From positions 1-64,000 of the forward strand of contig JAFLCP010000011.1 in the NCBI GenBank assembly GCA_017303505.1: a stretch of 64,000 bases of DNA. The letters are read 5' to 3'. Below, piece by piece: positions 9,783-26,893 of the stretch. The notes beneath the pieces were generated by a model. That model made no database searches. It saw only the letters and a list, made by a program, of their open reading frames with translations, and was not told where the DNA came from. Within the stretch, counting starts at the first letter, position 1. Every line of letters starts with the position of its first letter. The position numbers and the translations under genes are program-made. This DNA comes from Planctomycetota bacterium. GTDB lineage: Bacteria; Planctomycetota; Planctomycetia; Pirellulales; Pirellulaceae.

Positions 9783-11573
9783 TTAGGGAACGTATTGAAT
9801 GTCATCGAGATAAAATGTCACCTCGCTCCCCTGACTGGCAAGCGACCAACCAAAAGCCGTCTTGATGCGAGTCAAGTCAGACTTCGAAAACTCGATCCGG
9901 TACTTCTTCCACTCTTTGGTCAGCTTAACATCTTTCAATTCGCCTCGCGCGCTATCACCATACATCGCTTGGCTTTCGATCGCGCCTACGATGAAAGACA
10001 CCACTTCATTACCCTGTTCGCCGCGAGCCCAAAATTCGATGGCGGACGCCCCAGTGAAGTTAAGGCCTCCAGGAAACTCACCTTTCCAATCATTGGGAGG
10101 CGATTGCCACAGCACTCCGCCCCAATTCTCTCTCGCTTTATACATTACTTTCAGGCAATGTTCACCAGTATGGGGTTCCGTCGTATTCGCATCATCCATT
10201 TCGATCGCCGCCGCATTGCCCATGTAGCCTGACGGAACGAAGTCCTTTTGGGTTGTCGCTTCACGATAAACAAAATAAGGCAACTTAGCCTGCGGACTTA
10301 GCTTAGGTTTGAAAGGTGCATCTACATAAAACGGAACGTTTGCGACAGCCGCTCCACCTTTTTCGTCCGTGAGGTAGGCGAACAGCCTATAAGCGCCACC
10401 ACTGTCGGGGACCTGAAATTCCACTTCGTTTCCTTTGGAAACCAAAGGTACATCCATTTCAAGTTCCTCGTTTTGTCGATCGCCCCCGACTCCGTTTTGC
10501 AAGGTATCGGCGACGACTTTCCACTGCAGCACAACATTCTCCAAACCGCTAGGAGTCATTAAGTGGGCTTTGACTGTTTGCCCCGGTTTCAAGCCATCGT
10601 CCCGATCGATCTTTACACCATTAATCTTAGGGCATTCGGGAAGTTTAGTTTTTCCTCCCCATACGTTGGCCATTTCATCTACAGCCGCCAACCTTTCCCC
10701 TCCGGGCAATAACATGCCAAACCAAGTCGCAGTCGTTTCCTGCTTATGGCCCCATAGAAAAACAAAGGAACCTAAGCATTGAGAACTATTCTCGATCGCA
10801 TTGAGGCGGAAACCTTTGGCATATAGTTCACCCTTGGCGGTACTCGACGGTTCGATTGCCGCTTTCCAGCGGGTGCGTCCCGCTTCCCACGGACCCAATG
10901 GCCCATGTTCAGTTACAATATAAGGCTTGCGAAACCCTGCATCTTTCAGTCGCTGCGGAAGATTAAAAACGCCACCATACGAATTGATCCCGACGATATC
11001 CACGTTGGGACAATAGTTTTCAATTGCCTTTAACTTCTCTGCATTGGTTCCAATCTCTGCTATCACCGTGGCAGTGGGATGATTCGGATCAAGGCGTTTG
11101 ATTTCGCGTGCGATATGATCGATGGCATACCATATCGCTGGGTTGTTCCCCTCCCCTTCCATTTCATTACCGATTGCCCACATCAAAACGGCGGGATGAT
11201 CTTTGAATTTTGCGACATCCTGTAAACACGTATCGAGCTGCTTTTCAACTTGCACTCGATTTTGATAATCGAATCCATGTCGAACGTGCCCCACCCATAA
11301 CCCGACACAAACTTTTAAGTTGTTCTTATGAGCCGAATCGAGAACCACATCCAAGCCATCTGTACTCCAGGTGCGAATGCAGTTGCCACCAACGTCTGCG
11401 AGTAGATCAAGATTCGTTTGGCCACCAGCTCCTTGAATACGAAACGGCTTACCATTAACGATGAGTCGATATCCGGCCTTGTTTGTTTCCAAAGTGACCA
11501 TCGATTGAGCCAGGGCTGTTCCGGCTTGCCAAGTGAATATCGCAAGTAGACAAAGAGACTTCAGTGAAACCAC
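9783..11573 (-). CDS. Glycoside hydrolase, GH2-like TIM barrel with C-terminal carbohydrate-binding-type domain
   Basis: A 596-residue exported protein. After a signal peptide (about 1-23) comes a TIM barrel of the GH2/clan A type: LIVNGKPFRIQGAGG near 37-51, the acid/base motif IGNE with Glu137, and the nucleophile motif TEHG with Glu222. Residues about 330-420 form an Ig-like segment, and 430-596 resemble a beta-sandwich carbohydrate-binding domain (FTGASAIEFWARGEQG, FYLDDIQYV). The N-terminal sugar-binding domain of classical GH2 enzymes is absent, so specificity cannot be read off. Probably transcribed with the downstream deacetylase. Confidence 0.8.
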   Translation of the reverse strand: MVSLKSLCLLAIFTWQAGTALAQSMVTLETNKAGYRLIVNGKPFRIQGAGGQTNLDLLADVGGNCIRTWSTDGLDVVLDSAHKNNLKVCVGLWVGHVRHGFDYQNRVQVEKQLDTCLQDVAKFKDHPAVLMWAIGNEMEGEGNNPAIWYAIDHIAREIKRLDPNHPTATVIAEIGTNAEKLKAIENYCPNVDIVGINSYGGVFNLPQRLKDAGFRKPYIVTEHGPLGPWEAGRTRWKAAIEPSSTAKGELYAKGFRLNAIENSSQCLGSFVFLWGHKQETTATWFGMLLPGGERLAAVDEMANVWGGKTKLPECPKINGVKIDRDDGLKPGQTVKAHLMTPSGLENVVLQWKVVADTLQNGVGGDRQNEELEMDVPLVSKGNEVEFQVPDSGGAYRLFAYLTDEKGGAAVANVPFYVDAPFKPKLSPQAKLPYFVYREATTQKDFVPSGYMGNAAAIEMDDANTTEPHTGEHCLKVMYKARENWGGVLWQSPPNDWKGEFPGGLNFTGASAIEFWARGEQGNEVVSFIVGAIESQAMYGDSARGELKDVKLTKEWKKYRIEFSKSDLTRIKTAFGWSLASQGSEVTFYLDDIQYVP

Positions 11574-11651
11574 ACAAACTCCAGTTGCATAGCAGAATAG
11601 AACTTTAGCGATTAATCAGAACCAACTTCACGGACGAATGCTGGTCCGAAA

Positions 11652-12923
11652 CTAGGTGCGCTGGGCACGATAAATGCTCTCTTTGCCACTTGTGAGATAG
11701 GCCACAAAGCAGGCGACAGCCGCATATAGGAAGAAAGGACTCTCCAGTAAACCAGGACTATGCGGTGAGAATAACTCAATCCCCATCACCGTGCAGGCGA
11801 GAGGCGTTTTTGTCGCGCCGGCGAAAAGGGCGATGAAGCCCAAGCCCGCCATCAAATCAACGGGAGCCCCTAACCATACTCCCAGGGTATTACCCAACGC
11901 GGCTCCCATGAAAAACAGAGGAGTCACCTCGCCCCCCTTAAACGCCATGCCAACGGTTAACGCCGTCAATGACAGTTTTAGAAGCCAGCTCACGGGGGTC
12001 GCACCACCCTCGCGAAAGCAACTAGCGATCGTGATCGGATGAAGCGACGAAGGATTAGCGTTTACCCCCAACCCCAAGTACTCATGAGCATTGAACAGTG
12101 AGACGAAAGCGATAACCAATATCCCACCGACTGCGGGCCGAAGCCAAGGTTTTGAGATCCACTTTTTGGCCGCTTGCGAAATCCAATGACTGGTGAAAAC
12201 AAAACATTGACTCGCTAAACCAAACAGACAACCGGCCAAGAAGACTTTTATCCATGTGGCATATTCTCCATGCCACCAACCACTCACATTGCTGGATTTC
12301 AGCGACGCGAGTTGAATCGAATAAGCTGAATGTTCAATCCCCCACGCCAAAGTGACTTGATCTGCAACGATGGCGCAAAACAAACACGGCAGCATGGCTC
12401 GATGATCAATTCGCCCGCGCACCAACACCTCTAAAGCAAAAATGGCCCCAGCGATTGGCGTTCCAAATACCGCTCCAAATCCTGCCGCAATTCCAACCTT
12501 TAGGCAGCTTGATACCTCAGCCGGTTTTATTCCTAACCAAGCAGCAACCAGCCCCGCCAAACTTCCTCCCATTTGTACTGCGGTTCCTTCTCTACCCGCC
12601 GATCCGCCACCCAAATGTGTTAGCAGAGTTCCTATTAAAACTAAGGGTGCCATACGCGCGGGTACGCCCCCACCAGGTTCATGGATTTGGTCAATAATTA
12701 GGTTGCTCCCACCCTCAGCCTCTTGCCCCGCGAAATGGTAGAGAAGTCCCGACGCTAGGCCCAAGATAGGCAGGCACCACAAGAGCCATGGATATTGCCA
12801 ATGCAATTCGGTTACACGATCTAGAGACCACAAAAAGAAAGCCACCGCACTTCCGACCGCGATCGAAATCACTAGGTAGGCCAGCAACCTACGAAACGTT
12901 TCGTACAAATAAAGGGTGGACAT
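11652..12923 (-). CDS. CLC-family anion transporter, resembling the fluoride/proton antiporter (CLC-F) branch
   Basis: A 423-residue multi-pass protein with CLC signatures: EGGSNLIIDQIH near 70-81, GGGSAGREGTAVQMGGSLAG near 105-123 with the gating glutamate Glu112, and GGEVTPLFFMGAALG near residue 330. It has no C-terminal CBS domains. The GREGT variant (instead of GREGP) and the NLIID stretch where chloride-type CLCs have GSGIP are, as I recall them, features of the CLC-F branch that exports fluoride. This is family knowledge plus inference; a chloride or other anion role cannot be excluded. It stands alone between the GH2-like gene and a DUF1559 gene. Confidence 0.8.
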   Translation of the reverse strand: MSTLYLYETFRRLLAYLVISIAVGSAVAFFLWSLDRVTELHWQYPWLLWCLPILGLASGLLYHFAGQEAEGGSNLIIDQIHEPGGGVPARMAPLVLIGTLLTHLGGGSAGREGTAVQMGGSLAGLVAAWLGIKPAEVSSCLKVGIAAGFGAVFGTPIAGAIFALEVLVRGRIDHRAMLPCLFCAIVADQVTLAWGIEHSAYSIQLASLKSSNVSGWWHGEYATWIKVFLAGCLFGLASQCFVFTSHWISQAAKKWISKPWLRPAVGGILVIAFVSLFNAHEYLGLGVNANPSSLHPITIASCFREGGATPVSWLLKLSLTALTVGMAFKGGEVTPLFFMGAALGNTLGVWLGAPVDLMAGLGFIALFAGATKTPLACTVMGIELFSPHSPGLLESPFFLYAAVACFVAYLTSGKESIYRAQRT

Positions 12924-13254
12924 TTCGTTTGATCGCTCTCTTTATCCAGATCGGTGGGAGGGCTACAGGTGAAGCCACTCCTTTGCCCTTCTAGCAAGAC
13001 TTTCGCTGGCATCAGCAAGTGCTTGAATTCGAGTATAACACGCCACTTTGCTGGACCTGCCATTCTCTATCCACAGTTACAAACAAGAATATACGAACTT
13101 TGGCCCCCCTCACATTCGTCCGTTGCAATGAGGAATCAAATGGATTACAGTTACCCCTAGAATGGCTCCTAAAGGAACTCCCGCTTCCCTTATCTATCTT
13201 AATCCAAAATTTGGGCGGATTCACTCTCTTTCACTTCCCTGGAATCTGGATCTT
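12924..13254. other. Intergenic region between divergent CLC and DUF1559 genes
   Basis: This 331-bp region must hold promoters for both divergent genes. On the minus strand a TATACT box (RC of AGTATA near 13031-13036) could be a -10 element for the CLC gene. I looked for a fluoride riboswitch upstream of the CLC gene and did not find its conserved pairs. The reading frame of the DUF1559 gene extends into it (to 13162), but that extension is not pilin-like. Confidence 0.4.
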
Positions 13255-14241
13255 ATGCACAACCATAACCGTAATCGATGGAGTGGTTTTACTCTGGTCG
13301 AACTGTTGGTCGTTATTGCCATTATCGGGATCTTGGTAGGTCTGTTGCTTCCAGCCGTTCAAGCGGCTCGCGAGTCCGCTCGCCGAGTTCAATGTGTAAA
13401 CAATTTGAAGCAGATTGGATTGGCTTACCACAATCATCATGACACGTTCAAGACCTTTCCATCCGGTGGCTGGGGATGGTATTGGATGGGTGATGCGGAC
13501 CGAGGAACAGGTTTGCGACAGCCGGGTAGTTGGGCCTATGCCATTCTTCCTCAAATGGAGCAATTGAATCTTTACAATCTTTGCAGTGATGGCCAAGCGG
13601 ATGTGATCACCACTCAGCAGATGGCCAACACGGCCAAGGCAACTCAAACAGTTGTGTCAGCTTATATCTGCCCATCGCGACGGGCCGCCACACTTTATAA
13701 CCGCGCCATAACAGCGGGTGTTCCTGGCGGCCATGCCTATAACGCGGACCCCGTCGCGCAAACCAATCGCGCCGATTATGTAGCGAATGCAGGAGATACA
13801 AAAGTTATGTGGGGTGGAGGACCGAACGTGGCCAATGGATTCGCGGGAATTGGATTCGCTAATATGAACAATAGCAATGGCGTCTCTCATCAACGTTCTG
13901 TGATCAAAATGGCCGACATTATGGACGGCACATCGAACACATATATGGTTGGCGAAAAGTATCTCAACCCAGATAACTATGAAACAGGTTATGACTACGG
14001 CGACGATCACAGTTTCATGGCGGGGGATGATTACGATATGCACGCCTGGACTGATAACCCACCGTTGCAAGACCGAAAAGGGTACGCCGAGTTTTGGCGA
14101 TTTGGTAGCAGCCATAGCAGCGGATTCAATGTGACCTTTTGCGATGGATCTGTTCGTCACATCATTTACACGGTTGATCCAGTCGTGCATCGGTATTTGG
14201 GCAACCGCAAAGATCGACAGCCTATCCAACTTCCAGAGTAA
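13255..14241 (+). CDS. DUF1559 pilin-like protein with prepilin-type N-terminus
   Basis: A 328-residue protein if started at ATG 13255 ([12 protein letters not shown]); the longer frame from 13162 adds an unlikely leader. The prepilin peptidase site is [24 protein letters not shown] with Glu at +5 and a long hydrophobic helix, followed by [14 protein letters not shown] and [15 protein letters not shown], the hallmark DUF1559 start. The C-terminal H-x9-DG motif is present (H then SSGFNVTFC then DG). The family is hugely expanded in planctomycetes; members are thought to be type II secretion/pilus-related surface proteins. An EF-hand lipoprotein follows 18 bp later. Confidence 0.9.
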
Positions 14242-14259
14242 TTTGAAAGTGTCTATCGC

Positions 14260-14880
14260 ATGCGATTTAGTTTTGCTTTGTTGTCAATCGCAGTATTAGT
14301 AGTTTCAATAGGCTGCGGTGATGCACCGTCGCGTTTGCAACAGCAATCGTTCAGCTCTTCTTCTGCCGCTGCAGCAGCCATCAAGTTGTATGACAAAGAT
14401 GGTGATAGCAGTCTCGATGAAGCAGAGGTCGCAGCAATTGCGTCGATCGCCAATGACTTAGCTCAATTCGATTTGGACAACAATAAAGCTGTCAGCCAAA
14501 GCGAAATCCAGCAGCGATTCGATAAATGGCAAGAAATGAAGGTGGCACTCGTTCCATGCAGTTTTGTGGTGAAGGTCGACGGAAAACCACTGCCCGATGC
14601 CGAGGTCACGCTTGAACCGGAAGAATTTTTGAATACCACTCTAAAGCCATGCATCGGAAAAACAGATGTATCAGGAAGAGTGTCTCCAGCAAAAACGACA
14701 ACGCAAGGTGATCCCGACGCCGGCCTGACTGGAGTCCCTCCTGGACTTTATAAGGTTAAGATCGTGCATCCAAGACTAGAGAAGTTGACGAAATACAATT
14801 CAGACACAACTCTTGGACTTCAAGTTGCAGCGGACAACCAAAAATTGATGTTGCTTGAGTTTGACTTGCCCAGCAAATAA
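14260..14880 (+). CDS. Lipoprotein with EF-hand-like pair and carboxypeptidase-regulatory-like domain
   Basis: A 206-residue protein with a lipoprotein signal (LSIAVLVVSIGC, lipobox Cys at about residue 19). Two EF-hand-type calcium loops follow: YDKDGDSSLDEAE near 44-56 and FDLDNNKAVSQSE near 70-82. The C-terminal part (VKVDGKPLPDAEVTL, DVSGRVSPA, GVPPGLYKVKI) is a transthyretin-like beta-sandwich. Small lipoproteins of this type commonly sit directly after DUF1559 genes in planctomycetes, and the 18-bp gap supports one operon. Likely role: a surface partner of the pilin-like protein (inference). Confidence 0.75.
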   Translation: MRFSFALLSIAVLVVSIGCGDAPSRLQQQSFSSSSAAAAAIKLYDKDGDSSLDEAEVAAIASIANDLAQFDLDNNKAVSQSEIQQRFDKWQEMKVALVPCSFVVKVDGKPLPDAEVTLEPEEFLNTTLKPCIGKTDVSGRVSPAKTTTQGDPDAGLTGVPPGLYKVKIVHPRLEKLTKYNSDTTLGLQVAADNQKLMLLEFDLPSK

Positions 14881-14919
14881 AGCACTTTGTCGCGATCGAT
14901 TGGCCTGCCGGCGATTTCG

Positions 14920-16617
14920 CTAGATGTGCTTTTTCGCAGAGAGAGGATGGCCCGATAGAGACCGATGCTGCTCTAGGCCTATAACTTGCAACTCTTTACC
15001 ACACTGCTTCGCTTCGTTTGTGGTTAGATGGAGTTTCTCCATAACTGTGTGGTCAACAAAACGCGTCTTCGAGAAGTCTAATGTGACCAAATCATAGGTT
15101 TGGAAATTTGTCTGAATCACTTGATTGAGCCCAAGCCAGTTCGAGAAGATTGCTGCATCATTTACGATGAGCAGAACTTTTTTGTCGCTTTGGGCAATCC
15201 CTTCAACATCTGCTTTGAAGAAACTCTTGAGCTGCACACCATTCCATAAGTGAAATCCGATCTTCGTCGCGATGCCAATTCCAACGCCAATTAATAAGTC
15301 TGTGGCTAGGGTAGCAATGATGGTTACAACAAAGACGACCAGCTGCTCGCTTCCAAGTTTATAAATCCGCAAAAACTCGTAGGGATTCGCTAAACGAAAA
15401 CCAGTGTATACCAACATCGCTCCTAGAGCGGCCAATGGAATTCTATGAATAAGCGATGGCAGGAGAAGCACAAAGGCTAAGAGAAAAAGGCCGTGAAACA
15501 TATTGGCGTTTCTCGTCCGTCCACCACTGTCCAAATTGGCTTTGCTGCGGACGATCTCAGCGATCATGGGTAATCCGCCAATGAGAGACGATAACAGATT
15601 TGCAACACCTAAGGCGGCAAGCTCACGGTTGTAATTCGTCTTTCTTCGCCATGGATCTAGCAGTTCAATCGCTCTGGCACTAAGCAACGACTCTAAGCTC
15701 CCGACCAAACTAAATAGGATGATGTATTGAAGTCCGGTCTTGGTAGCTACCGCGCGAAAATCAGGAAAAGCGAAAGCTTGCGACGCATCTTGCAACACGT
15801 AGGGAATGTTGACCAAAAACGTCGGCCCAAGTTCAAAGCCAGAATTGGAACCTAACCAAGCGAAATCGAATGGCAGCTTGTATTGGTGCCATTGATTGAG
15901 ATCCATAAAGATGCCCATGCACAACGAGACGACCAACACGATGAATTGTGCGGGAATCGCTTTGAGTCGATCACCTCGCAAAAGCGGAAAACAGAACAAG
16001 ATCACCAAGCTGACAATTCCGATGAGTGCTATTGCTGGATTCATATGCCCAAGTGCATGTGGCAATTCGCTTAATAGCTCAAGTGGCTCAGCACCTTTCT
16101 TCGCTGCGACGCCAATCATTTCATAGGATTGTTTAGCAATAATGATCAGGCCAATCGCAGCCAACATGCCATGGACGGGAGTGAGCGGAAAAAAATCTAC
16201 CCATTTACCAACGCGCAGTAGGCCAAACAAGATCTGGATGATTGCGGCGCAAACGCCAACTCCAAGTGCCAGCTTATAACCAAGGTACAGTTTATCTGCT
16301 TCACTTAAGCCTTGACCAAATTCAGCACCCAAATCGGTTACGGCACCCAGCACGATCACAATCATTCCCGCTGCAGGGCCCTTGATCGTAAGTTCCGAGT
16401 TCCCCAAAAGCGTACAAATTACGCCGCCGATCACAGCCGTCCAAATGCCAGCGATGGGAGGAAAACCACTGGCTCGCGAAATCGCAAGACAAAGTGGCAA
16501 AGCAATCATGAATACAAGTAAGCCCGCAATAACGTCATTGCGTAAGCTCTTGGCTCGTGTTGGAACGTTGCGATCTGTTGTCGGTGATTCAGACATACTT
16601 GCCGTCTTTTTTCCCAT
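14920..16617 (-). CDS. SulP-family anion transporter with STAS domain (copy 1)
   Basis: A 565-residue transporter: a SulP/SLC26-type membrane domain (about residues 20-440) with the motifs LCLAISRASGFPPIAGIWTA, GPAAGMIVIVLG, FFPLTPVHGMLAAIGLIII and GGLPMIAEIVRSKANLDSGG, then a cytoplasmic STAS domain (about 450-555; LVTLDFSKTRFVDHTVMEKLH). SulP proteins move sulfate, bicarbonate or other anions; BicA-type members bring bicarbonate with sodium. It is a close paralogue of copy 2 (17087-18802), with near-identical membrane motifs. Start is ATG 16617 or ATG 16596 (MSESPTTD), the latter matching copy 2 better. The DabAB neighbourhood makes bicarbonate a good candidate substrate (inference). Confidence 0.88.
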   Translation of the reverse strand: MGKKTASMSESPTTDRNVPTRAKSLRNDVIAGLLVFMIALPLCLAISRASGFPPIAGIWTAVIGGVICTLLGNSELTIKGPAAGMIVIVLGAVTDLGAEFGQGLSEADKLYLGYKLALGVGVCAAIIQILFGLLRVGKWVDFFPLTPVHGMLAAIGLIIIAKQSYEMIGVAAKKGAEPLELLSELPHALGHMNPAIALIGIVSLVILFCFPLLRGDRLKAIPAQFIVLVVSLCMGIFMDLNQWHQYKLPFDFAWLGSNSGFELGPTFLVNIPYVLQDASQAFAFPDFRAVATKTGLQYIILFSLVGSLESLLSARAIELLDPWRRKTNYNRELAALGVANLLSSLIGGLPMIAEIVRSKANLDSGGRTRNANMFHGLFLLAFVLLLPSLIHRIPLAALGAMLVYTGFRLANPYEFLRIYKLGSEQLVVFVVTIIATLATDLLIGVGIGIATKIGFHLWNGVQLKSFFKADVEGIAQSDKKVLLIVNDAAIFSNWLGLNQVIQTNFQTYDLVTLDFSKTRFVDHTVMEKLHLTTNEAKQCGKELQVIGLEQHRSLSGHPLSAKKHI

Positions 16618-16922
16618 GGCAATAGCAAAACAACTAAAGAGATGTTGCTTTTTTTATCCATAGCGGCAAGAAAATTAAGATTACAATTGCGTAATTCGGG
16701 TTATAGCTAAGGATAGTAATGGACCGGAGAATACAAGCCCGCGTGCAGAAGATAGACTACGCGGCAGAAACGGCCCGTCTAATGACAGTTCTCTAGCTAT
16801 ATCCTTACTTCTATCACGATTTTACCGATTGCATCAATTCTCACGAATCTTTTGGTTTCTCCTTGATACGATCATTTCACTGAAACGCAAGCTTGAACGC
16901 ACAGAGGACCATGCGTTCAAGC
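16618..16922. other. Intergenic region between the small peptide gene and SulP copy 1
   Basis: About 300 bp with the hairpin 16889-16924 at its upstream end (minus strand). I searched for a second GCAA-N5-GTGCCA (minus-strand sigma-54 site) here and found none, so SulP copy 1 is either read through from the copy 2 promoter or has another promoter type. A TTGTAA...TATGGA pair on the minus strand (around 16660-16700) is a weak sigma-70-like candidate. Confidence 0.35.
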
Positions 16923-16924
16923 TT
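16889..16924 (-). terminator. 13-bp perfect hairpin after the small peptide gene
   Basis: AAGCTTGAACGCA (16889-16901) pairs perfectly with TGCGTTCAAGCTT (16912-16924) around a 10-nt loop. It overlaps the stop of the 41-residue peptide gene. The U-tract is weak, so it could be a terminator or a processing/stability element between the peptide and SulP copy 1. Confidence 0.5.
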
Positions 16925-17048
16925 AAAGCCGCCACCAGAGAACAGTGGGCAGGATAAAATCTCTCAACAAAATGGCAATCCCAATGACCAGGATAAGGAT
17001 TAGCAATCCTGAAATGTTTTTCTTGCCTGATAGTTGCGTGCTGCTCAT
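16923..17048 (-). CDS. 41-residue single-helix membrane peptide between two SulP genes
   Basis: Read directly from the minus strand: ATG at 17048, stop TAA at 16923-16925, with AGGG 6 nt before the ATG. The product starts MSSTQLSGKKNISG, has one membrane helix (LLILILVIGIAILL, about residues 15-28) and ends RDFILPTVLWWRL, a short amphipathic Trp-rich tail. It is 38 bp after the SulP copy 2 stop, so probably cotranscribed. Size and topology resemble small accessory subunits that stabilise or regulate transporters. I do not recognise the family; that it is a gene is inferred from start, SD, composition and position. Confidence 0.5.
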   Translation of the reverse strand: MSSTQLSGKKNISGLLILILVIGIAILLRDFILPTVLWWRL

Positions 17049-17086
17049 TGAACACCCTTTACTTAAGACGCTTTCATCCACGCAGA

Positions 17087-18802
17087 CTAAGAATTTCCGC
17101 TAACAATTTGAGTTCCATGTCCCTTCTTTGCAGAAAGAGGGTGACTAGATAAGGAGCGATGGCTTTCAAGACCAACGACCTTGAGTTCTTTTCCGGCCCG
17201 TTTGGCTTCATCGATGGCTTGGTGAAGCTTCTCCATCACGGTGTGATCGACCAATCGAGTTCGCGACAAATCCAACATCACAGAATCGTAGTGTTTGAAA
17301 TTTTCCTGAATGACTTGGCTTAATCCCAGCCAGTTTGAAAACACTGCGGCATGATTAACGATGAGCAACATATGCTGTTCATCTTGTGCAACGCCCTGGA
17401 CATCGGCCCGAAAAACATTCTGAATCGGAACGCCGTTCCACAAATGAAAAGCAAGTTTCGTGGCGATTCCAATTCCGACCCCAATCAATAGGTCGGTTGC
17501 CAGCGTGGCAACAATCGTCACAACAAACACAACAAACTGTTCGCTGCCAACTTTGAATACACGCACAAATTCATTTGGATTTGCAAGTCGGAAGCCGGTG
17601 TAAACCAACATCGCTCCCAGAGCGGCCAATGGAATCTTGTGGATTAATCCGGGCACCAATAAAACGAACGCCAGCAGGAATAAACCATGAAACAGGTTAG
17701 CGTTGCGAGTGCGTCCACCACTATCAACATTCGCCTTACTGCGGACAATTTCGGCAATCATTGGAAGACCACCGATCAACGATGCAAGCAGGTTAGCAAA
17801 GCCGACCGCTAACAATTCGCGGTTGTAATTGGTTTTGCGTTTCCAAGGGTCCAACAGTTCTATCGCACGTGCACTCAGGAGTGATTCGAGGCTTCCCACC
17901 AAACTGAATAGAATGATGTACTTGATTCCCGTCTGTGTCGTGATGCCACGAAAGTCGGGAAAAGCAAAGGCTTTGGAAGCGTCTTTTAGAACGTGGGGAA
18001 TATCGACTAGAAATCGAGGACCAAGTTCAAATTCGGTGTTAGCCGTTGCACCAGGAAACTGAAATGGCAAGCGATATTTGTGCCAATGATCTAGGTCCAT
18101 GAACAATCCCATGCACAACGCAACAACCAGCACGATGAATTGTGCAGGAACCGCTTTTAACTTATTTCCGCGAATGTAAGGAAAAGTAAAGAGGATGATC
18201 AAACTGATAACGCCAATCAATGCGATGCCAGGATTCATTTGTGTGAGAGCGTGCGGGAAATCCCTCAGAAGCTCCAGTGGCTCGGCCCCCTTGGTTGCAG
18301 AAACGCCGATGACCTCATAGGACTGCTTGGCGATAATGATCAAACCGATCGCGGCTAACATGCCATGAACCGGTGTTAATGGAAAGAAATCAACCCATTT
18401 GCCAACACGAAACAGTCCGAAGAGAATTTGAACGCCCGCGGCAACAACGCCGACCCCCAATGCAAGTTTGTATCCGAGCATCAACTTTTCAGTATCGCTC
18501 AAGCCTTGCCCGAATTGTCCCCCAAGGTCTGTTACCGCTCCTAACACGATCACGATCATCCCAGCGGCTGGACCTTTGATCGTTAGTTCCGAATTACCGA
18601 GCAAGGTACAGATGATACCGCCAATGACTGCCGTCCAAATTCCGGCAATCGGCGGAAAGCCGCTGGCACGAGCAATCGCCAAGCATAAAGGTAAGGCGAT
18701 TAGAAACACCAGAAACCCTGAAATCACATCGCTGCGCACACTCGACATACGAGTTGGTGCTACCTGTTCACTTGCCGAAGCTGGCGAGTTGCTTTCACTC
18801 AT
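17087..18802 (-). CDS. SulP-family anion transporter with STAS domain (copy 2)
   Basis: A 571-residue SulP/STAS protein, very similar throughout to copy 1 (shared motifs FPPIAGIWTAVIGG, LTPVHGMLAAIGLIIIAKQSYE, GGLPMIAEIVRSKAN; STAS segment DLSRTRLVDHTVMEKLH). ATG 18802 has a strong SD (GGAGGG, about 6 nt spacing). A consensus sigma-54 promoter lies about 33 nt upstream, directly after the NtrC-type regulator gene, so expression is probably under that regulator. Substrate could be bicarbonate, sulfate or another anion; co-location with DabA/DabB favours bicarbonate. The Ser/Thr normally phosphorylated in some STAS domains cannot be assigned with confidence. Confidence 0.88.
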   Translation of the reverse strand: MSESNSPASASEQVAPTRMSSVRSDVISGFLVFLIALPLCLAIARASGFPPIAGIWTAVIGGIICTLLGNSELTIKGPAAGMIVIVLGAVTDLGGQFGQGLSDTEKLMLGYKLALGVGVVAAGVQILFGLFRVGKWVDFFPLTPVHGMLAAIGLIIIAKQSYEVIGVSATKGAEPLELLRDFPHALTQMNPGIALIGVISLIILFTFPYIRGNKLKAVPAQFIVLVVALCMGLFMDLDHWHKYRLPFQFPGATANTEFELGPRFLVDIPHVLKDASKAFAFPDFRGITTQTGIKYIILFSLVGSLESLLSARAIELLDPWKRKTNYNRELLAVGFANLLASLIGGLPMIAEIVRSKANVDSGGRTRNANLFHGLFLLAFVLLVPGLIHKIPLAALGAMLVYTGFRLANPNEFVRVFKVGSEQFVVFVVTIVATLATDLLIGVGIGIATKLAFHLWNGVPIQNVFRADVQGVAQDEQHMLLIVNHAAVFSNWLGLSQVIQENFKHYDSVMLDLSRTRLVDHTVMEKLHQAIDEAKRAGKELKVVGLESHRSLSSHPLSAKKGHGTQIVSGNS

Positions 18803-18834
18803 TTTCTACCCTCCAAGATTGAAGAGCAGTTAAC

Positions 18835-18849
18835 GCAACTCCTGTGCCA
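18835..18849 (-). promoter_or_regulatory. Sigma-54 (-24/-12) promoter for SulP copy 2
   Basis: On the minus strand the sequence is TGGCAC AGGAG TTGC, an exact match to the TGGCAC-N5-TTGC core consensus with correct spacing. Predicted transcript start is about 18824, leaving a 5' UTR of about 20 nt with the SD GGAGGG. It lies between the stop of an NtrC-class activator gene and SulP copy 2. Confidence 0.8.
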
Positions 18850-18891
18850 TTGAAAAAAGAGGGCGTTTCCTCAGAAAATGGATACTACCGA

Positions 18892-18905
18892 CTCAAGCAA
18901 TTGAG
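18892..18905. promoter_or_regulatory. Inverted repeat upstream of the sigma-54 promoter (possible activator site)
   Basis: CTCAA-GCAA-TTGAG is a perfect inverted repeat about 43 bp upstream of the -24 element. A second, overlapping pair TGAGCA-N5-TGCTCA (18902-18918) covers the end of the regulator gene. Either could be an enhancer-type binding site or a weak terminator of the regulator gene. Confidence 0.3.
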
Positions 18906-18908
18906 CAT

Positions 18909-20360
18909 TTACTGCTCATCCTGGCCATCATCTGCCCAGACCGTCTTTTCAATCTGAAGCCCTAAGTTGCGAAGCTTGTGTCGCAAGCTCGTGCGAGTGA
19001 TTCCAAGTATTTTCGCCGCTTTGACACGATTCCCCTCAACATGATTCAGAACTCGCGTAATGACGTATTTCTCAATCAAGTCGATCGCTTCTTGATGAAG
19101 GTTCTCACTCCCTTCAACAAGTCGATCGGTCACAAATTGCTCCCAAGCGAATACGGCTTCTTTTCCTGGTTCTGGACTAGTGTTTTCGCGATCTGCACCG
19201 ACATGACTGGGGAGGAAATCAGGCAGTAAAACACTCCCATTCATCTTGAGAATCGCTTGCTTCAAAACACTCTGCAATTCGCGCACGTTTCCGGGCCAGC
19301 GATAGTTCGTTAAGCGTTCGAAGGCCCCATCCGTCACCTGAACGTCGCGTTTTCCCAATTCTTTCCCGATTTTGGCTCGATAATACTCAACCAACGTGGC
19401 TATGTCGTCACCTCGGTCTCGCAGCGGCGGGAGCATAATCGTGAATACATTCAAGCGATAAAAAAGGTCCCGCCTGAACTTGCCTGCCTGCACAAGTCGG
19501 TCAAGATTTGCATTGGTAGCTGCAATAATTCGCACATCGGTCGTTACGACTTCGCTCCCACCGACTCTTTGAAACGTTTGATCCTGTAGCAATCGTAATA
19601 TTTTGGCTTGCGTGGACAGAGGCATGTCACCAATCTCGTCTAAGAAGATTGTCCCGCCGTCACATTGCTCGAATTTTCCGATCCGCTGTTTATCCGCGCC
19701 AGTAAATGCCCCTTTTTCATTACCAAAAAGCTCACTTTCCAACAAATCTTCTGGTATCGCAGCGCAGTTAATCGCCAAGAAGGGTTTCTGGTTTCGCTGA
19801 CTGTGTTGATAAATGGCCCGAGCGACTAGCTCTTTACCCGTTCCACTTTCACCCAGCACCAGGACGGTCACGTTTTGACAAGCTACGCGTCCAATCGACT
19901 TGTATACTTCCTGCATAGCATTGCAACGACCATGCAGAATGTCGCCTTCCGTGGTGGAACTTGTTTCATCACCGAGCAAAGTTGGGGTCCGCATCAGACG
20001 GCTTGACTCCACGGCCTGCCGCACAATCCGGCGTAGCTCTTGAAGTTCCAACGGCTTCAACAGGTACTCGAATACCCCAAGCTTCATTGCCTCAATCGCC
20101 AATTCGCTCGTACCATGTCCGGTGATAAGGATCACCGGAACCCTTGAGTCAATCCGCTTCAAATCCTCAAAAAGAGTCAAGCCTTTCGAATCTGGCAGAT
20201 GAAAATCAAGCAAAACCACATCGGGGCGATTCGTCGTGAATTCTTTCAGGCCTTCTGCGGCGGTTGTTGCCGTTCGAACCCTCAAATCAGCATCCCTAAA
20301 GGCTTTTTGGAATGCGTGCCGAATAGAAGCTTCATCATCAATCAACAACAAATCAGCCAT
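18909..20360 (-). CDS. NtrC-class sigma-54-dependent response regulator
   Basis: Domains in order: receiver (about 1-120; LLLIDDEAS, phospho-acceptor Asp52, Lys of LLKPLEL), sigma-54 AAA+ domain (about 140-375; Walker A GESGTGKE, GAFTGA loop, Walker B FLDEIGDMP), and a Fis-type helix-turn-helix (about 430-475; NRVKAAKILGITRTSLRHKL). GAFTGA shows it can contact sigma-54. I chose ATG 20360 (MADLLLIDDE), which has AGGTGG about 6 nt upstream; GTG 20369 adds three residues. It begins within 15 bp of the sensor kinase stop, so the two form one operon. A consensus sigma-54 promoter directly downstream drives SulP copy 2, the probable target. Confidence 0.92.
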   Translation of the reverse strand: MADLLLIDDEASIRHAFQKAFRDADLRVRTATTAAEGLKEFTTNRPDVVLLDFHLPDSKGLTLFEDLKRIDSRVPVILITGHGTSELAIEAMKLGVFEYLLKPLELQELRRIVRQAVESSRLMRTPTLLGDETSSTTEGDILHGRCNAMQEVYKSIGRVACQNVTVLVLGESGTGKELVARAIYQHSQRNQKPFLAINCAAIPEDLLESELFGNEKGAFTGADKQRIGKFEQCDGGTIFLDEIGDMPLSTQAKILRLLQDQTFQRVGGSEVVTTDVRIIAATNANLDRLVQAGKFRRDLFYRLNVFTIMLPPLRDRGDDIATLVEYYRAKIGKELGKRDVQVTDGAFERLTNYRWPGNVRELQSVLKQAILKMNGSVLLPDFLPSHVGADRENTSPEPGKEAVFAWEQFVTDRLVEGSENLHQEAIDLIEKYVITRVLNHVEGNRVKAAKILGITRTSLRHKLRNLGLQIEKTVWADDGQDEQ

Positions 20361-20374
20361 CCGTACCACCTACT

Positions 20375-21802
20375 TCACTTGCCCAAAGGTAACCAGATAG
20401 TAAATGTTGCTCCACCGCCTGGCGTGTGCTGAGCACTGATGGCACCATTATGTTCCTCAATAATTCTGCGACAAATAACCAGTCCTAAACCGACCCCGGT
20501 ATCCTTGCTGCTACTGAAGGCTTGAAAAAGATTGGATAGTGCTTCATCGCTAAAGCCTACTCCATTATCGATGACATCGATTCGAACGCCACCACCGGCT
20601 AATTGGGTTCGCAGCGTCAGACTTCCACCATTAGGCATCGCATCCAATGCATTGATTGCCAAATTCACAAGTACCTGCTGCAATTGAGCCTTATCTACGA
20701 CAAATTCAATGTCACCGTTTAAGGTATCCACAGTCACCATGACGCGTTGACGTTTTGCTCTTCCCCCAATCAAATCCAGGGTGCAATCGAGCACATCGTT
20801 GAGCTCTACCAACCTTCGTTCAGGTTTGGGCAAGCGCGCAAACGCAAGGAATGTTTGTAGTGAGCGTTCCATCCGCCGCACTTCCGATTCAATGATCTTT
20901 AAGTCATTTCGGCTCAAAATCCCATCTTCCTCTAAGCCCGTTTGGACCAGCATTTTCACTGACGTGAGTGGGTTGCGAAGTTCATGTCCCACCCCAGCAG
21001 CCAGCTTTCCCAATGATGCGAGTTGTTCGGAACGAACCATTTGCGTTTCACGATGGTGTAGTTGACCGATTATGGCCACAATTCGTTCGTCGAGATCTTC
21101 TAACGCTTCGTGAAGACCGCTGAATCCCTCGTTTTCTTGCACCGCCACTTCGGGAGTTTCTGGCGACAATTTGCCAGCCACATCGTGAATTTGAATGCGC
21201 AGTTTGTGGATCGAACGAGTCAATAGTCGAGCGACTGTATATCCAAACATCAACCCCGCTATCCCACCTAGAATACTGACCATTGCAACGCCCCAAGCCA
21301 ATTGGCTTAGAACTCTCTCGTGCGCAGAAGTAACAGTTTCTATTTGTTGGTCATTGTAGGCTTCAATTTCGCGAACCGGCAACAGAACATTGGTCTGCAA
21401 GAATTTGATCGTACTTACTAACTCCTCATTCTTCACCGCTTCAGAGGTTGAGGTCGCCTTCTCCCATAAGCTCAAATACTGCGCAAAACCATCGACAATA
21501 ATCTGCACCAGTCGCTGCTCTTCCGCATGATCCGCATATTTTTGTATCGCCGAAATCTGCATGAGCGCTTTTGAATGAAGCTCAGCAACACCCTCAACTT
21601 GATTCGTTTCGAGGGCAACTAGCGTATTGAGCGTGCCACGAAAATCAGCAGCCGCAGCTCGGCTAGAGACGTTCTCGCGCAGCACCCGCGTGATCCGCGC
21701 TTGCTCAAACAGCAACCCCACCGCAGTATAGACCGTCAATCCTGTCAACAGGACGCCCGCGACCAACACCGGGTAAAGGTAGCGGATTCCAATGATCTTC
21801 AT
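20375..21802 (-). CDS. Membrane sensor histidine kinase
   Basis: A 475-residue kinase: TM1 about 10-32, an extracytoplasmic helical domain of about 135 residues (33-168; four-helix-bundle character), TM2 about 168-192, a linker, then HisKA with His273 in GHELRNPLTSV, and a HATPase_c domain (N box NALDAMPNGG, G1 DNGVGFS, G2 GVGLGLVICRRI). This is the NtrB-like partner of the downstream NtrC-class regulator. The stimulus is not evident; flanking DabAB and SulP genes suggest inorganic carbon, pH or an anion (inference). Confidence 0.9.
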   Translation of the reverse strand: MKIIGIRYLYPVLVAGVLLTGLTVYTAVGLLFEQARITRVLRENVSSRAAAADFRGTLNTLVALETNQVEGVAELHSKALMQISAIQKYADHAEEQRLVQIIVDGFAQYLSLWEKATSTSEAVKNEELVSTIKFLQTNVLLPVREIEAYNDQQIETVTSAHERVLSQLAWGVAMVSILGGIAGLMFGYTVARLLTRSIHKLRIQIHDVAGKLSPETPEVAVQENEGFSGLHEALEDLDERIVAIIGQLHHRETQMVRSEQLASLGKLAAGVGHELRNPLTSVKMLVQTGLEEDGILSRNDLKIIESEVRRMERSLQTFLAFARLPKPERRLVELNDVLDCTLDLIGGRAKRQRVMVTVDTLNGDIEFVVDKAQLQQVLVNLAINALDAMPNGGSLTLRTQLAGGGVRIDVIDNGVGFSDEALSNLFQAFSSSKDTGVGLGLVICRRIIEEHNGAISAQHTPGGGATFTIWLPLGK

Positions 21803-21818
21803 TCGAGCTCCAACCGAA

Positions 21819-21844
21819 CAGCCGCTTCATACTTGAAGCGGCTG
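21819..21844. terminator. 11-bp hairpin between dabA and the sensor kinase gene
   Basis: CAGCCGCTTCA (21819-21829) pairs perfectly with TGAAGCGGCTG (21834-21844) around a 4-nt loop. It is about 90 bp after the dabA stop and 17 bp before the kinase start on the minus strand. No clear U-tract follows, so it may be a terminator or a partial attenuator setting the ratio between dabBA and the two-component system. Confidence 0.5.
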
Positions 21845-21932
21845 CACTTGCTTACAAAATCTTTAATCAGGTCTCATACGATGTTTCCATCATCACCTAA
21901 ACTCCTCTGCGAATCTTGCGCCAAAACAATCC

Positions 21933-24461
21933 TTAATTCTTTGCAAGCTTCAGCCATCGACCTTCAGGTTCTCTTTCCAAGAGTCCTGAATTCCCCCAAC
22001 AAGTCAAGTGTATCCAACCATTGCGAACAAGATTCTGCACGATGGGATGCTTTTCAATCACCCGATCGATCGCTTCCGGTTTTGCATACAGGAAAACCGA
22101 CAAGCGTAGCGGTTCATGTTGGAACTTCTCCCCATCGTGCACAGACTGCCAAGGGAGTCCTGTTTTCAGGTCGCCACCATTACCTTCTACAACTCCCACA
22201 CCACCCATCACACTGTGCAGCACTTTGTTCCCGCTTCCAAATGATTTGGGATCAACGGTTGAGAAGTAGTATTGAGTATTAATCCAGTGAGCAACCACCA
22301 CCGGTGCGGTCAGGATCAATTCCAGGATGGTCCCCTCTTCATCAGTGGCTGGATCATAGCTATGCAAAAAGACTCGTCCATCAAGAGTTAGCCCCTTGGT
22401 CAAATCGCGTGGAGCCGCAATAAACGCTGCGTTGTTGACCAGTCCCCACTCAGGTCGCACCTCAGACCAATCCAGCGCCCGTCGGTAAACACTATCTTGC
22501 GCATTACTGCCAAAGCGATTGTTTCGTTCAACCTGAGCGCGATGCGTTGCTTGCGGTAATGCCTTTCGAAGTACAGCCAACTCCTCCTTAGCAGCTGACG
22601 AAATCCCATCTTCTTCAAAAAACGAGATCTCGTCTGTTGTGGTGTTGTGCAACGCAGCCATAAACCAACATTCTTCAGCGATGTCGATCCCATCTTGGCG
22701 AAGCACTTTTCTTACTTCTGGATCATTGAGCAATTGGGCTGCCATTCGAGCGTTGCTTTCTCCGGAATGACCGCCACATGCACCGCAATCCAAACTGGCT
22801 TGGAATGGATTATTTGTAGATTGGCTACCATGTCCCACAAAAACAACTAGAGTTCCCAGGCGTTTCTTGAGTCCCAGGTTATGCAAGATGCCTTTAGCCA
22901 AAGCAGCCCGCTCTGTTAACTCGATGTTCGCTTGCAGTCCCGAACTCTTTCGGATCAAGTTTGCCACCGTCTGGCCATCGTGAGTAAGCCGGTCCTTCTT
23001 CCAACGCCATGACCGAACCGAAGGTGAGAGTCGTTGTATGAGTTTGGGTAAGTACGTTAGACCAAGTGTCTCGACATAACCGAAGCAAGCCACAGCCGAC
23101 GAACCTAATTGCTCGATGAGAGAACGGACAGCAACAGGTTTCTTACAGGGCTGGCTAGCGTGGCAATCACACCCTGTACCTGAACTCGTTTCATGAACAT
23201 GAAACTTTGGACTTAAGAGCACAGGTAATTGATTCACCGATCCATCATTCTCAGCAGAATGAAGTTGGAACGGGAGGCCAAAGAACCCTGCGAAACCAAG
23301 AGTTTCCACCTCTGGCGAAACCCATTCAATTTGTCTTCGCAACACTTCAGATCGAACGTCAATACAAAAGACCATTTGTGTTGCACTCGCAGTTCGCTTA
23401 ACAACTGCTTCTGGTCTTTCATGAGGCAAGGCTAGGCTTAGATTCTGGCGATAACGTGCTTCGCAAGCAACTAGGCCTGCGAACCTTGCCAAATCCGTTA
23501 CTAGTCGCTCCCTTGTCTCAGTATCTTTTTCTTGACTCTCCGAATGGGTCGGCCACAGCTTGAAACTTTCACGATCTGGATACACTCGAGCCAAACATGC
23601 ATCGTACGCCAGCCGAACTGCCAACAATCCGACAAGTTCATCGTCGTCCAAATCCGCGATAGATTTCCCGAATTGTAAACCTTGGATATATGAGGCCCAA
23701 CCTACGACTGAATTCCACTGTGCGAGCAGAAATCCTCGCCAATGTTTTTGTGGAACTTCGAACCATCGCAAAAGTGCGACAATACAATCGACGGGTGATT
23801 CCGGGAGTTCGCCAATGGTCTGTCGAAAATCTCGAAGGCCAAGCCAGTCCATTCGGTAGTCGACTTGCTTGAGCGTCTGCCATGCGGAATATAGCCCACG
23901 ATTCTTATAGGGATGTTGCCAAGCTGTGTTCCCATCTGCATACAGTGAACCGCAGTGCCGAGAAATCTCCTCAACAATTACATTCTCCCAAGTTATCTCG
24001 CCAGAATAACTCACTTGCTCTGCAAAAGTTTGATACTCTTTCTGGTGTGTTACCTGCGAGTCAGCCTTCGAGGCCAACACGGAGAGAATCTCTTCTTCCG
24101 AAACAGAGTAAGCTTCAAGCAAGACTTCGAAGCGCTCGCGAACTTGCGAACACGCTTGGACAATATCCGCCTTCGACAACGTCCCTTGTGTCAGATGCTT
24201 TCGATAATGTTCGATGGGCATCAACAGCTCCGCATCCCGCACGCTTTGCACTTCTCGCATCGCTTGTAGCAGGTTCATGTCGTTGTAACCATGCAGTGGA
24301 TTCACCGCCACAAAGTCGCGCAATGGCCACTGTGGAGCTAGGCGAGCAATCAGCTTGGGCAGCAAATCCAATGCCTGTTGGCGCTCGTTCAATGAAACCA
24401 TGGGAAGGTCAAATTTGTTCTTCACAGTTTTTTCCGAGCTGGTGATGAATGAATTAGACAT
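21933..24461 (-). CDS. dabA: DabA, carbonic-anhydrase-like subunit of the DAB inorganic-carbon complex (DUF2309/UPF0753)
   Basis: An 842-residue protein of the DUF2309 family. DabA in Halothiobacillus binds zinc through a carbonic-anhydrase-like Cys-Asp-His-Cys set and, with DabB, converts CO2 to bicarbonate inside the cell, driven by the ion gradient. The equivalents are visible: Cys366 and Asp368 in FCIDVRSE, His544 in VGHGSQ, Cys559 in DCGACGG; the 15-residue His-to-Cys spacing matches the family. The N-terminus has LPKLIARLAPQWPLRDFVAVNPLHGY, also diagnostic. It overlaps dabB by 8 bp, so translation is coupled. The active-site set looks intact. Confidence 0.93.
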   Translation of the reverse strand: MSNSFITSSEKTVKNKFDLPMVSLNERQQALDLLPKLIARLAPQWPLRDFVAVNPLHGYNDMNLLQAMREVQSVRDAELLMPIEHYRKHLTQGTLSKADIVQACSQVRERFEVLLEAYSVSEEEILSVLASKADSQVTHQKEYQTFAEQVSYSGEITWENVIVEEISRHCGSLYADGNTAWQHPYKNRGLYSAWQTLKQVDYRMDWLGLRDFRQTIGELPESPVDCIVALLRWFEVPQKHWRGFLLAQWNSVVGWASYIQGLQFGKSIADLDDDELVGLLAVRLAYDACLARVYPDRESFKLWPTHSESQEKDTETRERLVTDLARFAGLVACEARYRQNLSLALPHERPEAVVKRTASATQMVFCIDVRSEVLRRQIEWVSPEVETLGFAGFFGLPFQLHSAENDGSVNQLPVLLSPKFHVHETSSGTGCDCHASQPCKKPVAVRSLIEQLGSSAVACFGYVETLGLTYLPKLIQRLSPSVRSWRWKKDRLTHDGQTVANLIRKSSGLQANIELTERAALAKGILHNLGLKKRLGTLVVFVGHGSQSTNNPFQASLDCGACGGHSGESNARMAAQLLNDPEVRKVLRQDGIDIAEECWFMAALHNTTTDEISFFEEDGISSAAKEELAVLRKALPQATHRAQVERNNRFGSNAQDSVYRRALDWSEVRPEWGLVNNAAFIAAPRDLTKGLTLDGRVFLHSYDPATDEEGTILELILTAPVVVAHWINTQYYFSTVDPKSFGSGNKVLHSVMGGVGVVEGNGGDLKTGLPWQSVHDGEKFQHEPLRLSVFLYAKPEAIDRVIEKHPIVQNLVRNGWIHLTCWGNSGLLEREPEGRWLKLAKN

Positions 24462-26067
24462 TGCTTTCCTTTCCGCTGATCAAGGCTGGGCCCAGGTAAT
24501 TTTGCTTGGCTTTGAAGAGTGCCACAAAACGATGCGCAATCAAGTCGAGATACAATTCGTTAGCCATGTGTGCATAGAGTCTTCTCGTAAACGGATGCTT
24601 TGGGGCTTGCTCAACCAGGACTTGAATCCCCCAGAGAGCAAAGAATGTCGTCGCCACATACGCTAGGTTGAACCATTGCCAAACCGTCATGCCATCCGTC
24701 GAATGAGGAACTGAATCTCTCAAGTACCATTGTGCCATCAACGTGACGCCGAAGTAGATCGATCCCATACCGACCGCAAGAGCGGCTGTTCGGATTGGGC
24801 TTTGGTAGGCTTGCCACACTCGCAGTACAAGCGTTTGAACCGCCAGAGCAAAGACCATTACCAGGGGAAGTTTCGCGATTGAGAACCAGTCCAGGTAAAC
24901 ACACACGGAGAAGGGGATAACCATTCCCACCAGACTGCACAACAAGATGCTCGCCGCATACCCCACTCCGCTATTTGTCTGCTTTGTGGCGGCCTGCGGG
25001 GAGATCGCCGGCGAGCGTAGGGTTCCCGCACTGAGAAAGGCGTACGATTTGTAAAGCGAATGGGCGATGATATGGAGGAAAGCCGCCGAGAAAGCTCCCA
25101 ACCCACACTGCAACATCATCATTCCCATTTGAGCAATCGTCGAATACGCCAAGCTACGTTTCACATTGGTTTGCGTCAACATAATCGCCGCCCCGATGAC
25201 CGCCGTAAGACCACCCAATATGACAAGGATCGTCATGGCAACTGGAGCCATTTCCAAAAGTGGACTGACTCGTATCAGTAGATAACCTCCGGCGTTGATA
25301 ACACCCGCATGCATAAGGGCTGAAACGGGAGTAGGTGTTTCCATCGTGTCGGGCAGCCAAGTGTGGAACGGAAATTGCGCTGATTTCGTCAGACCACCCA
25401 AGACCAGAAGGATCGCCGCCCACGTTAGCTCTGGACGCTGCGATAGCTCAGCGGCTGAAACATCAATCATTCGAAACAACTCAGCGTAGTCCAGTGTTCC
25501 GCAGACTCGATAAATGAGAGCGATAGCGCCAATCAAGAAGGCATCGCCGAATCGACTGATGACAAACTTCTTAAAGGCCACTCTCTGTGCATTCGGACGA
25601 TCACCGTAGTGCGTTAGCAATTGATGTAAACCGAAACTGGTAAGAACCCAAGCGACGAAAAAGACCATCAAGTTAGCAGCCAGGACCATCGTACAAACGG
25701 CGGCGAGAGTGAAACTTAACCAGCGTACAAAACGCCCCTGCCTTTTCTCACCTTGAAGATAGCGGCCAGAATAAAGGAGCACTGCCAAACCGACAAAGCT
25801 CACCAGCAAGTACATCGTGAGCGATAAGCGATCACAGAAAATGGCAATGGAGATTCCATTCCAATGCACAGGTTCAAAGGCATGGGGCAGGAAGGGCTCG
25901 ATGAAACTCATGATGCAGCCCCATAATGCGCATACGAGGTTGGCGACCATCGCACCTCGAGCGACGGTCAGCATCGCTCCTACATTTCCGTTAGCGATAC
26001 GCGACGGAATCGCCGCTACCCCCCATTGCAACAGGACAGCCATAAAAACCGCCGGCTCGAACCCCAT
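24454..26067 (-). CDS. dabB: DabB, NuoL-like membrane subunit of the DAB complex
   Basis: A protein of about 537 residues with roughly 13-14 helices, related to the proton-translocating subunits NuoL/MrpA: motifs FVGLAVLLYSGRYL, AWVLTSFGLHQLLTHY, FPFHTWLPDTMETPTPVSALMHAGVINAGGYLL and TQTNVKRSLAYSTIAQMG. In DAB complexes this subunit is thought to couple cation flux to DabA. I place the start at ATG 26067, which has GGAGG 8 nt upstream; the frame extends to ATG 26118 without a good SD. It precedes and overlaps dabA. A winged-helix regulator is divergent from it. Confidence 0.9.
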   Translation of the reverse strand: MGFEPAVFMAVLLQWGVAAIPSRIANGNVGAMLTVARGAMVANLVCALWGCIMSFIEPFLPHAFEPVHWNGISIAIFCDRLSLTMYLLVSFVGLAVLLYSGRYLQGEKRQGRFVRWLSFTLAAVCTMVLAANLMVFFVAWVLTSFGLHQLLTHYGDRPNAQRVAFKKFVISRFGDAFLIGAIALIYRVCGTLDYAELFRMIDVSAAELSQRPELTWAAILLVLGGLTKSAQFPFHTWLPDTMETPTPVSALMHAGVINAGGYLLIRVSPLLEMAPVAMTILVILGGLTAVIGAAIMLTQTNVKRSLAYSTIAQMGMMMLQCGLGAFSAAFLHIIAHSLYKSYAFLSAGTLRSPAISPQAATKQTNSGVGYAASILLCSLVGMVIPFSVCVYLDWFSIAKLPLVMVFALAVQTLVLRVWQAYQSPIRTAALAVGMGSIYFGVTLMAQWYLRDSVPHSTDGMTVWQWFNLAYVATTFFALWGIQVLVEQAPKHPFTRRLYAHMANELYLDLIAHRFVALFKAKQNYLGPALISGKESNV

Positions 26068-26136
26068 GACGCCCCCCTCCACTGCCGTGACTTTGTTTGC
26101 CGAACACCTCAGTCGCATTCACACGAACGCCGTATC

Positions 26137-26276
26137 GCGACTTCCAATTCACGAAATGTAATACACGACATTTTTTTCGTCAATTCCTTGTCGTATAATT
26201 TCTTGAATCTTTGCGGAAGTGTGCAAAAATAGACGTCGGGAACTTCGTAACTTGAAATTCGCGATTTGAAAGTCGC
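26137..26276. promoter_or_regulatory. Divergent promoter region with an inverted 13-bp operator-like pair
   Basis: GCGACTTCCAATT (26137-26149) and ATTTGAAAGTCGC (26264-26276) are inverted copies matching at 11 of 13 positions. Between them lie a TATAAT box at 26194-26199 (plus strand, towards the regulator) and on the minus strand TTGACG at 26178-26183 with a poor -10 (TTACAT, 26156-26161). Each copy would lie just downstream of one of the divergent promoters, a layout typical of repressor operators. Confidence 0.35.
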
Positions 26277-26344
26277 CCTTTTCCTGATACATTAGTCCCA
26301 ATAACCACTCATCTGGGCTATATTCCCCACCTAGGACCACGGGT

Positions 26345-26782: not shown

Positions 26783-26893
26783 TCTCAATCATTACCCAGA
26801 CCTGATCAGAGCGACTTTTTGCCTCACAACCTCAAGCAGGATAATATAGGATAATCAAGTACGATTTATCCCGCCTCCTGCAGTGAGCCCCCC

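Follow-up and report, generated by a model that had tools for sequence, protein, structure and literature searches.

Between two SulP-family transporter genes of a Planctomycetota bacterium (Pirellulaceae; contig JAFLCP010000011.1), a frame of 41 codons plus TAA lies on the minus strand at 16923..17048 of the window, which is the whole stretch of 64,000 nucleotides analysed here. Its hydrophobicity, a start signal, its place after the first SulP gene (SulP1) and a hairpin at its stop codon give moderate support to a small membrane-protein gene. Its product is most likely a lineage-restricted single-pass membrane peptide, ordinary in kind and orphan in sequence. The regulatory surroundings of SulP1, marked by a sigma-54 promoter-like box, are a firmer result than the role of the peptide, and a part as SulP subunit is only suggested by position.

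Position, start site and hydropathy of the frame

The frame runs from ATG at 17048 to TAA at 16923, encodes MSSTQLSGKKNISGLLILILVIGIAILLRDFILPTVLWWRL and begins 38 nt past the SulP1 stop on the same strand, the order of transcription being the SulP gene at 18802-17087, the peptide frame and the SulP gene at 16617-14920 (SulP2). A sequence-only reading of this DNA had placed a membrane-peptide frame of 41 residues between two SulP genes, and it is present there. From the ORF listing and hydropathy we obtained one predicted membrane helix, which by eye covers about residues 12-28 and is followed by RDFILPTVLWWRL. The best 19-residue Kyte-Doolittle mean is 2.84 in a single strongly hydrophobic stretch, which agrees with the one helix claimed earlier. 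Lys-Lys lies N-terminal of the helix, and Arg-Asp, the single proline and Trp-Trp-Arg lie C-terminal of it, at the predicted membrane edge. The tail had been called Trp-rich; it does contain Trp, though only two, in ...VLWWRL. The AGGG that had been seen ahead of the ATG is found at 17055..17058 (minus strand), a Shine-Dalgarno-like sequence with a spacing of 6 nt (context CGTCTTAAGTAAAGGGTGTTCA-ATG). For the start-site statistics we used a genome sample of 482 kb of the same genome, window included, of which 117 kb lie outside ORFs of at least 200 codons. In this sample a 4-mer of this kind was found ahead of 68 of the 151 long ATG ORFs vs 78 of the 892 internal ATGs. An alternative start, GTG at 17081, would give 52 codons, and on inspection no Shine-Dalgarno-like sequence was seen ahead of it. 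A search of the genome for a second copy of the peptide found none.

Hairpin at the stop codon

Repeat search and RNA folding gave a perfect 13-bp inverted repeat at 16889..16924 (minus strand) overlapping the stop codon of the peptide, with arms at 16889-16901 and 16912-16924, 13 of 13 pairs and a loop of 10 nt. The last two bases of the TAA are inside the stem, so the perfect hairpin that had been described at the stop indeed begins in it. As RNA the stem extends to 16-17 pairs, the fold of the 101-nt stretch has a z of -4.5 (0 of 200 shuffles were as good), and the genome contains the exact repeat only at this place. In the 482-kb sample 16 stems pair perfectly over 11 bp or more with a loop of 3-14, and 14 of them were outside long ORFs; therefore, such hairpins mostly mark spacers, like terminators or processing sites. 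The hairpin is terminator-like but has a weak T tract (GCGTTTC); it did not pass our terminator scan, in which the hits in the region (4) did not exceed the expected 6.0. Its position would suit the close of a transcript of SulP1 and the peptide, and equally the 3′ end of SulP1 with no translated peptide.

Gene or chance

The latter case leads to the strongest alternative, namely that the frame is untranslated, the 163 nt from the SulP1 stop to the hairpin being a 3′ untranslated stretch in which a hydrophobic frame arose by chance. To this we give a considerable probability that still falls short of even. As chance model we took 5000 dinucleotide shuffles of the 469-nt spacer between SulP1 and SulP2 and counted same-strand ORFs. 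An ORF of at least 35 codons was found in 82.5% of the shuffles, which makes the length of the peptide ORF uninformative and suits an untranslated stretch. Against it, an ORF with a 19-residue hydrophobicity of at least 2.8 was found in only 0.1%; hydrophobicity, unlike length, is beyond chance. Outside ORFs of at least 200 codons, small ORFs (30-90 codons, hydrophobicity at least 2.5) numbered 3 in 117 kb with the peptide included, and another of these, with 67 codons, could be a normal short gene. In the shadow of long ORFs the 482-kb sample has one frame of hydrophobicity at least 2.8. It may be noted that this genome has about 4000 spacers of such size, which by scaling from the 0.1% gives an estimated 4-8 chance frames genome-wide on both strands, and hence the hydrophobicity is support and not proof.

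Codon usage was inconclusive and decides neither way, which leaves room for an untranslated frame. In codon score, 9% of shadow ORFs and 81% of real gene fragments stood above the peptide, and when synonymous choice alone was scored the values were 32% and 76%. Among 71 membrane fragments taken from long genes, the peptide ranks at the 13th percentile by the full score and the 20th by synonymous choice. Its codon score is the best of the four spacer frames compared, one rival being an overlapping frame of 73 codons (16834-17055, minus strand) that scores worse. The Shine-Dalgarno-like site at the right distance from the ATG and a hairpin that starts exactly at the peptide stop speak against an untranslated stretch, and together these two signals favour a translated last gene.

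Searches for relatives of the peptide

The lack of relatives also speaks for an untranslated frame. Three overlapping samples, with the own genome included, were searched by tblastn: 60 relatives, 241 genomes of the family and 392 of the phylum. The genus sample is this genome alone, and the comparisons reach from other genera to the phylum level. None of the three yielded a credible homologue. At E up to 1, 13 of the 60 genomes had a match, own genome included, the best other having an E of 0.051. At E up to 0.05 there were matches in 2 of the 241 (the other at 0.0035) and 5 of the 392 (best other 0.0023), again with the own genome counted. By eye the weak matches are pieces of longer frames, several of them plainly membrane proteins, and we took them as chance; they include, as labelled by eye, a prepilin-like N-terminus and a frame among ribosomal-protein genes. 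One match was rejected for a stop codon inside the aligned part, the short frames in L002 and L005 for a likeness in helix composition only, and an alignment in L046 (17 residues, E 0.049) for lying outside every listed ORF. Plasmids gave no match at E up to 1, the PDB sequence search gave a single match at E 0.43 that was taken as chance, and Pfam, NCBIfam and PHROGs gave none. That the peptide might be the start of an AI-2E-type transporter, which it resembles, we rejected as Pfam gave no match. Prepilin motifs usually carry Glu at position 5, and a prepilin-like start was dropped since the peptide has no Glu there.

The two short frames in L002 and L005, which come from different genera, look like a separate small membrane-protein family: the L005 one (1432-1581, +) and the final 53 codons of L002 1507-1929 (-) both start with MLM.NPE and have an alike end, L.GQV...AI.LR.L. 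By eye, the L005 frame stands directly ahead of a histidine-kinase-like gene.

We also searched 700 nt downstream of SulP in 43 loci, which became 40 after leaving out the window's own two SulP genes and the incomplete L054. None of the 40 has a homologue of the peptide, and L045, with the closest full-length SulP outside the own genome (61%), has no such frame after SulP. L046 alone has a short hydrophobic frame no more than 60 nt from its SulP stop. This frame (6733-7002, +) has 89 aa with one hydrophobic stretch, begins 14 nt past the SulP stop, and shows neither sequence relation to the peptide nor a Pfam or NCBIfam match. Therefore, SulP loci do not conserve a small frame at this place, and conserved small frames at the same place in relatives, which the sequence-only reading had proposed to look for, were absent from the 40 loci, spanning other genera up to the phylum. 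At these distances the outcome is the lack of conservation that the reading had named as refuting its proposal. This too agrees with an untranslated frame. Co-duplication of the peptide with SulP was rejected on finding no copy after SulP2; the next gene, which is convergent, ends only 39 nt further on.

An accessory or regulatory SulP subunit, as first proposed, thus found no direct support, there being no credible homologue and no recurrent small frame in relatives. A stronger form of the proposal is that the peptide is a dedicated small SulP subunit of a sigma-54-controlled inorganic-carbon locus and that other planctomycete SulP loci have unrelated small helices in that position, such as the 89-aa frame of L046. 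Among the four other loci with a histidine kinase, an NtrC-type regulator and SulP in this order, L046 is the one that also carries a small one-helix frame after SulP, unrelated in sequence, which counts too in favour of the gene reading preferred below. We regard the stronger form as improbable; if true, small SulP partners would evolve fast and escape homology searches.

In our view it is unlikely that the frame encodes a free-standing membrane-active protein with no relation to SulP, such as a type I toxin-like or stress peptide. Small size, one helix and a strong hairpin are typical of such genes and are all found here, and a minus-strand promoter-like match lies inside the frame at 16978-16951, in a region with 4 such matches found vs 5.3 expected in shuffles. 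On the other side, an Rfam search of 10000-28000 gave nothing up to E 1, the protein-family databases named above gave no match, the peptide has one copy in the genome, and no plus-strand promoter-like site is found over the frame to drive an antisense RNA. Equally improbable is that a larger gene or transposon decayed here and left a fragment still reading as a helix. In favour of this, the spacer is long (469 nt) with no other gene found inside; against it, the peptide aligns to longer proteins only in ways that look like chance, and neither the sequence upstream of SulP1 nor that downstream of SulP2 has clear similarity to the spacer (best piece 23 nt, E 0.022).

SulP genes and their neighbourhood

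On the minus strand the order is DabB-like gene, DabA, histidine kinase, NtrC-type regulator, SulP1, peptide, hairpin and SulP2. The first (24454..26118) encodes a NuoL-like protein by family match and is named DabB for its place beside DabA. DabA (21933..24461; Pfam PF10070, E 8.4e-242) is a probable inorganic-carbon transporter subunit. Pfam matches also identify the sensor histidine kinase (20375..21802) and the NtrC-type response regulator (18909..20369), which has a receiver, a sigma-54 interaction domain and a Fis-type HTH. SulP1 (17087..18802, 571 aa) is a SulP-family anion transporter (Pfam PF00916, E 3.8e-62), and SulP2 (14920..16617, 565 aa) was assigned by Pfam and by comparison with SulP1. 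The two share 77-78% of protein and 68% of DNA positions, so the pair is not a recent duplication. All 10 named relatives of SulP1 are planctomycete records. Its best solved relative by sequence is 6ki1, which we take to be BicA. Against the NCBIfam BicA equivalog SulP1 scores 153 bits where the cut-off is 880, and for this reason it is assigned to the SulP family with no substrate given; that the substrate is bicarbonate we infer. Several relatives have a SulP frame that extends about 100-130 codons past the matched part. Thirteen loci (L021, L023, L025, L027-L035, L037) have alike hydrophobic frames of about 400-500 codons upstream of SulP, NuoL-like by eye, to which the window's DabB-like protein gives no match at E 1e-8.

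Sigma-54 box before SulP1

A motif scan found the sigma-54 promoter-like box TGGCACAGGAGTTGCG at 18834..18849 (minus strand), 32 nt upstream of the SulP1 ATG and within the 107-nt gap between the NtrC-type gene and SulP1. Sigma-54-like sites are common in the window when up to 2 mismatches are allowed (51 vs 37.6 expected); a single box is therefore weak evidence, and only its recurrence speaks for it. The four other loci with the kinase, NtrC and SulP order (L045, L046, L048 and L052) are 56-60% identical to the window in NtrC and 54-61% in SulP, and with the window included all 5 of 5 have a box in the gap between NtrC and SulP. Of 11 positions the boxes score 10 (L045), 10 (L046), 9 (L048), 11 (L052) and 10 (window). 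Sites scoring at least 10 with GG and GC kept number 6 in the window, so that about 0.005 would be expected per 107-nt gap. We also scanned 39 rows of other SulP loci, of which L049 is void with no sequence before SulP, giving 35 distinct places; a box scoring at least 9 within 300 nt of SulP was found in 5 of them (L029, L051, L053, L061, L062). Three of these (L053, L061, L062) have an identical sigma-54-like 16-mer, TGGCGTGGCAGTTGCA, about 172 nt ahead of the estimated SulP start, and no kinase and NtrC pair like that of the window was matched in them.

The NtrC gene had 21 matches in the 392 phylum genomes, 20 of them with loci. After setting aside the window's own L095 and L096, which ends at the gene, none of these loci had SulP within 1.5 kb of the NtrC match. 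Found in five loci and absent beside other NtrC matches, the order of kinase, NtrC and SulP is thus rare but recurrent. Four of the NtrC-match loci (L103, L106, L107, L112), from four genomes of one genus and with close NtrC relatives, share a small protein with one helix, IIVLIIVAVVAM..GGW.SF......IHK, encoded some 700 nt downstream of NtrC. Ahead of SulP2, the spacer contains no sigma-54-like site with up to 2 mismatches, and as a result SulP2 is not obviously under control of the SulP1 type. A weaker site with 2 mismatches, TGGCGCAAGATTCGCA, lies at 21908-21923 (minus strand) between the DabA and histidine kinase genes. Judged from sequence and gene order, the recurrence suggests that SulP expression may be controlled by sigma-54 through the kinase and NtrC pair.

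Proposed role of the peptide

The reading that we prefer, tentatively and at a little under an even chance, is that of a real small gene, restricted to its lineage, which closes the SulP1 transcription unit and whose peptide tunes SulP1. Starting from the observed sequence features, gene order and recurrence of the box, we infer transcription, translation, membrane insertion and SulP1 binding as follows. The kinase and NtrC-type activator would act at the sigma-54 promoter 18849-18834, and the transcript would carry SulP1 and then the 41-residue peptide. The hairpin starting in the peptide stop codon would end or stabilise the transcript, with SulP2 beyond it; the peptide is thus probably read together with SulP1 under sigma-54 and ended by the hairpin. 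It would then insert in the membrane as a single helix, bind the SulP1 made with it and tune the activity or stability of SulP1, as AcrZ and KdpF do with their partners. If translated, it would be another orphan among the small membrane proteins missed by annotation and a candidate SulP partner. The surroundings suggest that some planctomycetes use sigma-54 to switch on a SulP transporter, which in this window belongs to one gene row with a DAB-type CO2 system.

Comparison with known systems

Among the matches listed from the open-licence literature (titles and abstract starts), none describes a small SulP subunit and none a sigma-54-controlled SulP in planctomycetes. No open-licence paper was found that joins sigma-54, planctomycetes and bicarbonate. 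We regard this silence as weak absence evidence. The BicA-type SulP bicarbonate transporters are related to the possible partner, SulP1, through PF00916 and 6ki1, and differ in that SulP1 lies far below the equivalog cut-off given above.

The DAB1 complex has three subunits, one being a small hypothetical transmembrane protein, hneap_0908 (PMC13144422). The likeness is a small transmembrane protein in an inorganic-carbon system, as the window's row has DabA and DabB-like genes. However, hneap_0908 is numbered between DabA1 (0907) and DabB1 (0909), whereas in the window DabA and the DabB-like gene share 24454-24461 and no gene separates them, and the place of the third DAB1 subunit has no counterpart. 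The peptide adjoins SulP1, with three genes and about 5 kb separating it from DabA, and is set apart by this gene position.

The analogy for the proposed role is with AcrZ and KdpF, small proteins of one helix that each modulate a transporter. As described in PMC7267776, AcrZ, a protein of 49 residues, is regulated together with acrAB and attaches to AcrB within the membrane, and a bend at its proline matters. The peptide differs in that no sequence relation was found to either, its putative partner is SulP, it is known from sequence alone, and conservation with the transporter was seen in 0 of the 40 other SulP loci. It shares with them the small size, a short ORF with one hydrophobic helix (from hydropathy only), one proline and a gene beside a transporter gene. 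As for being made with the transporter, it follows SulP1 at 38 nt on the same strand with the box before and the hairpin after, and by analogy with AcrZ and KdpF it would plausibly be a helix that binds SulP1.
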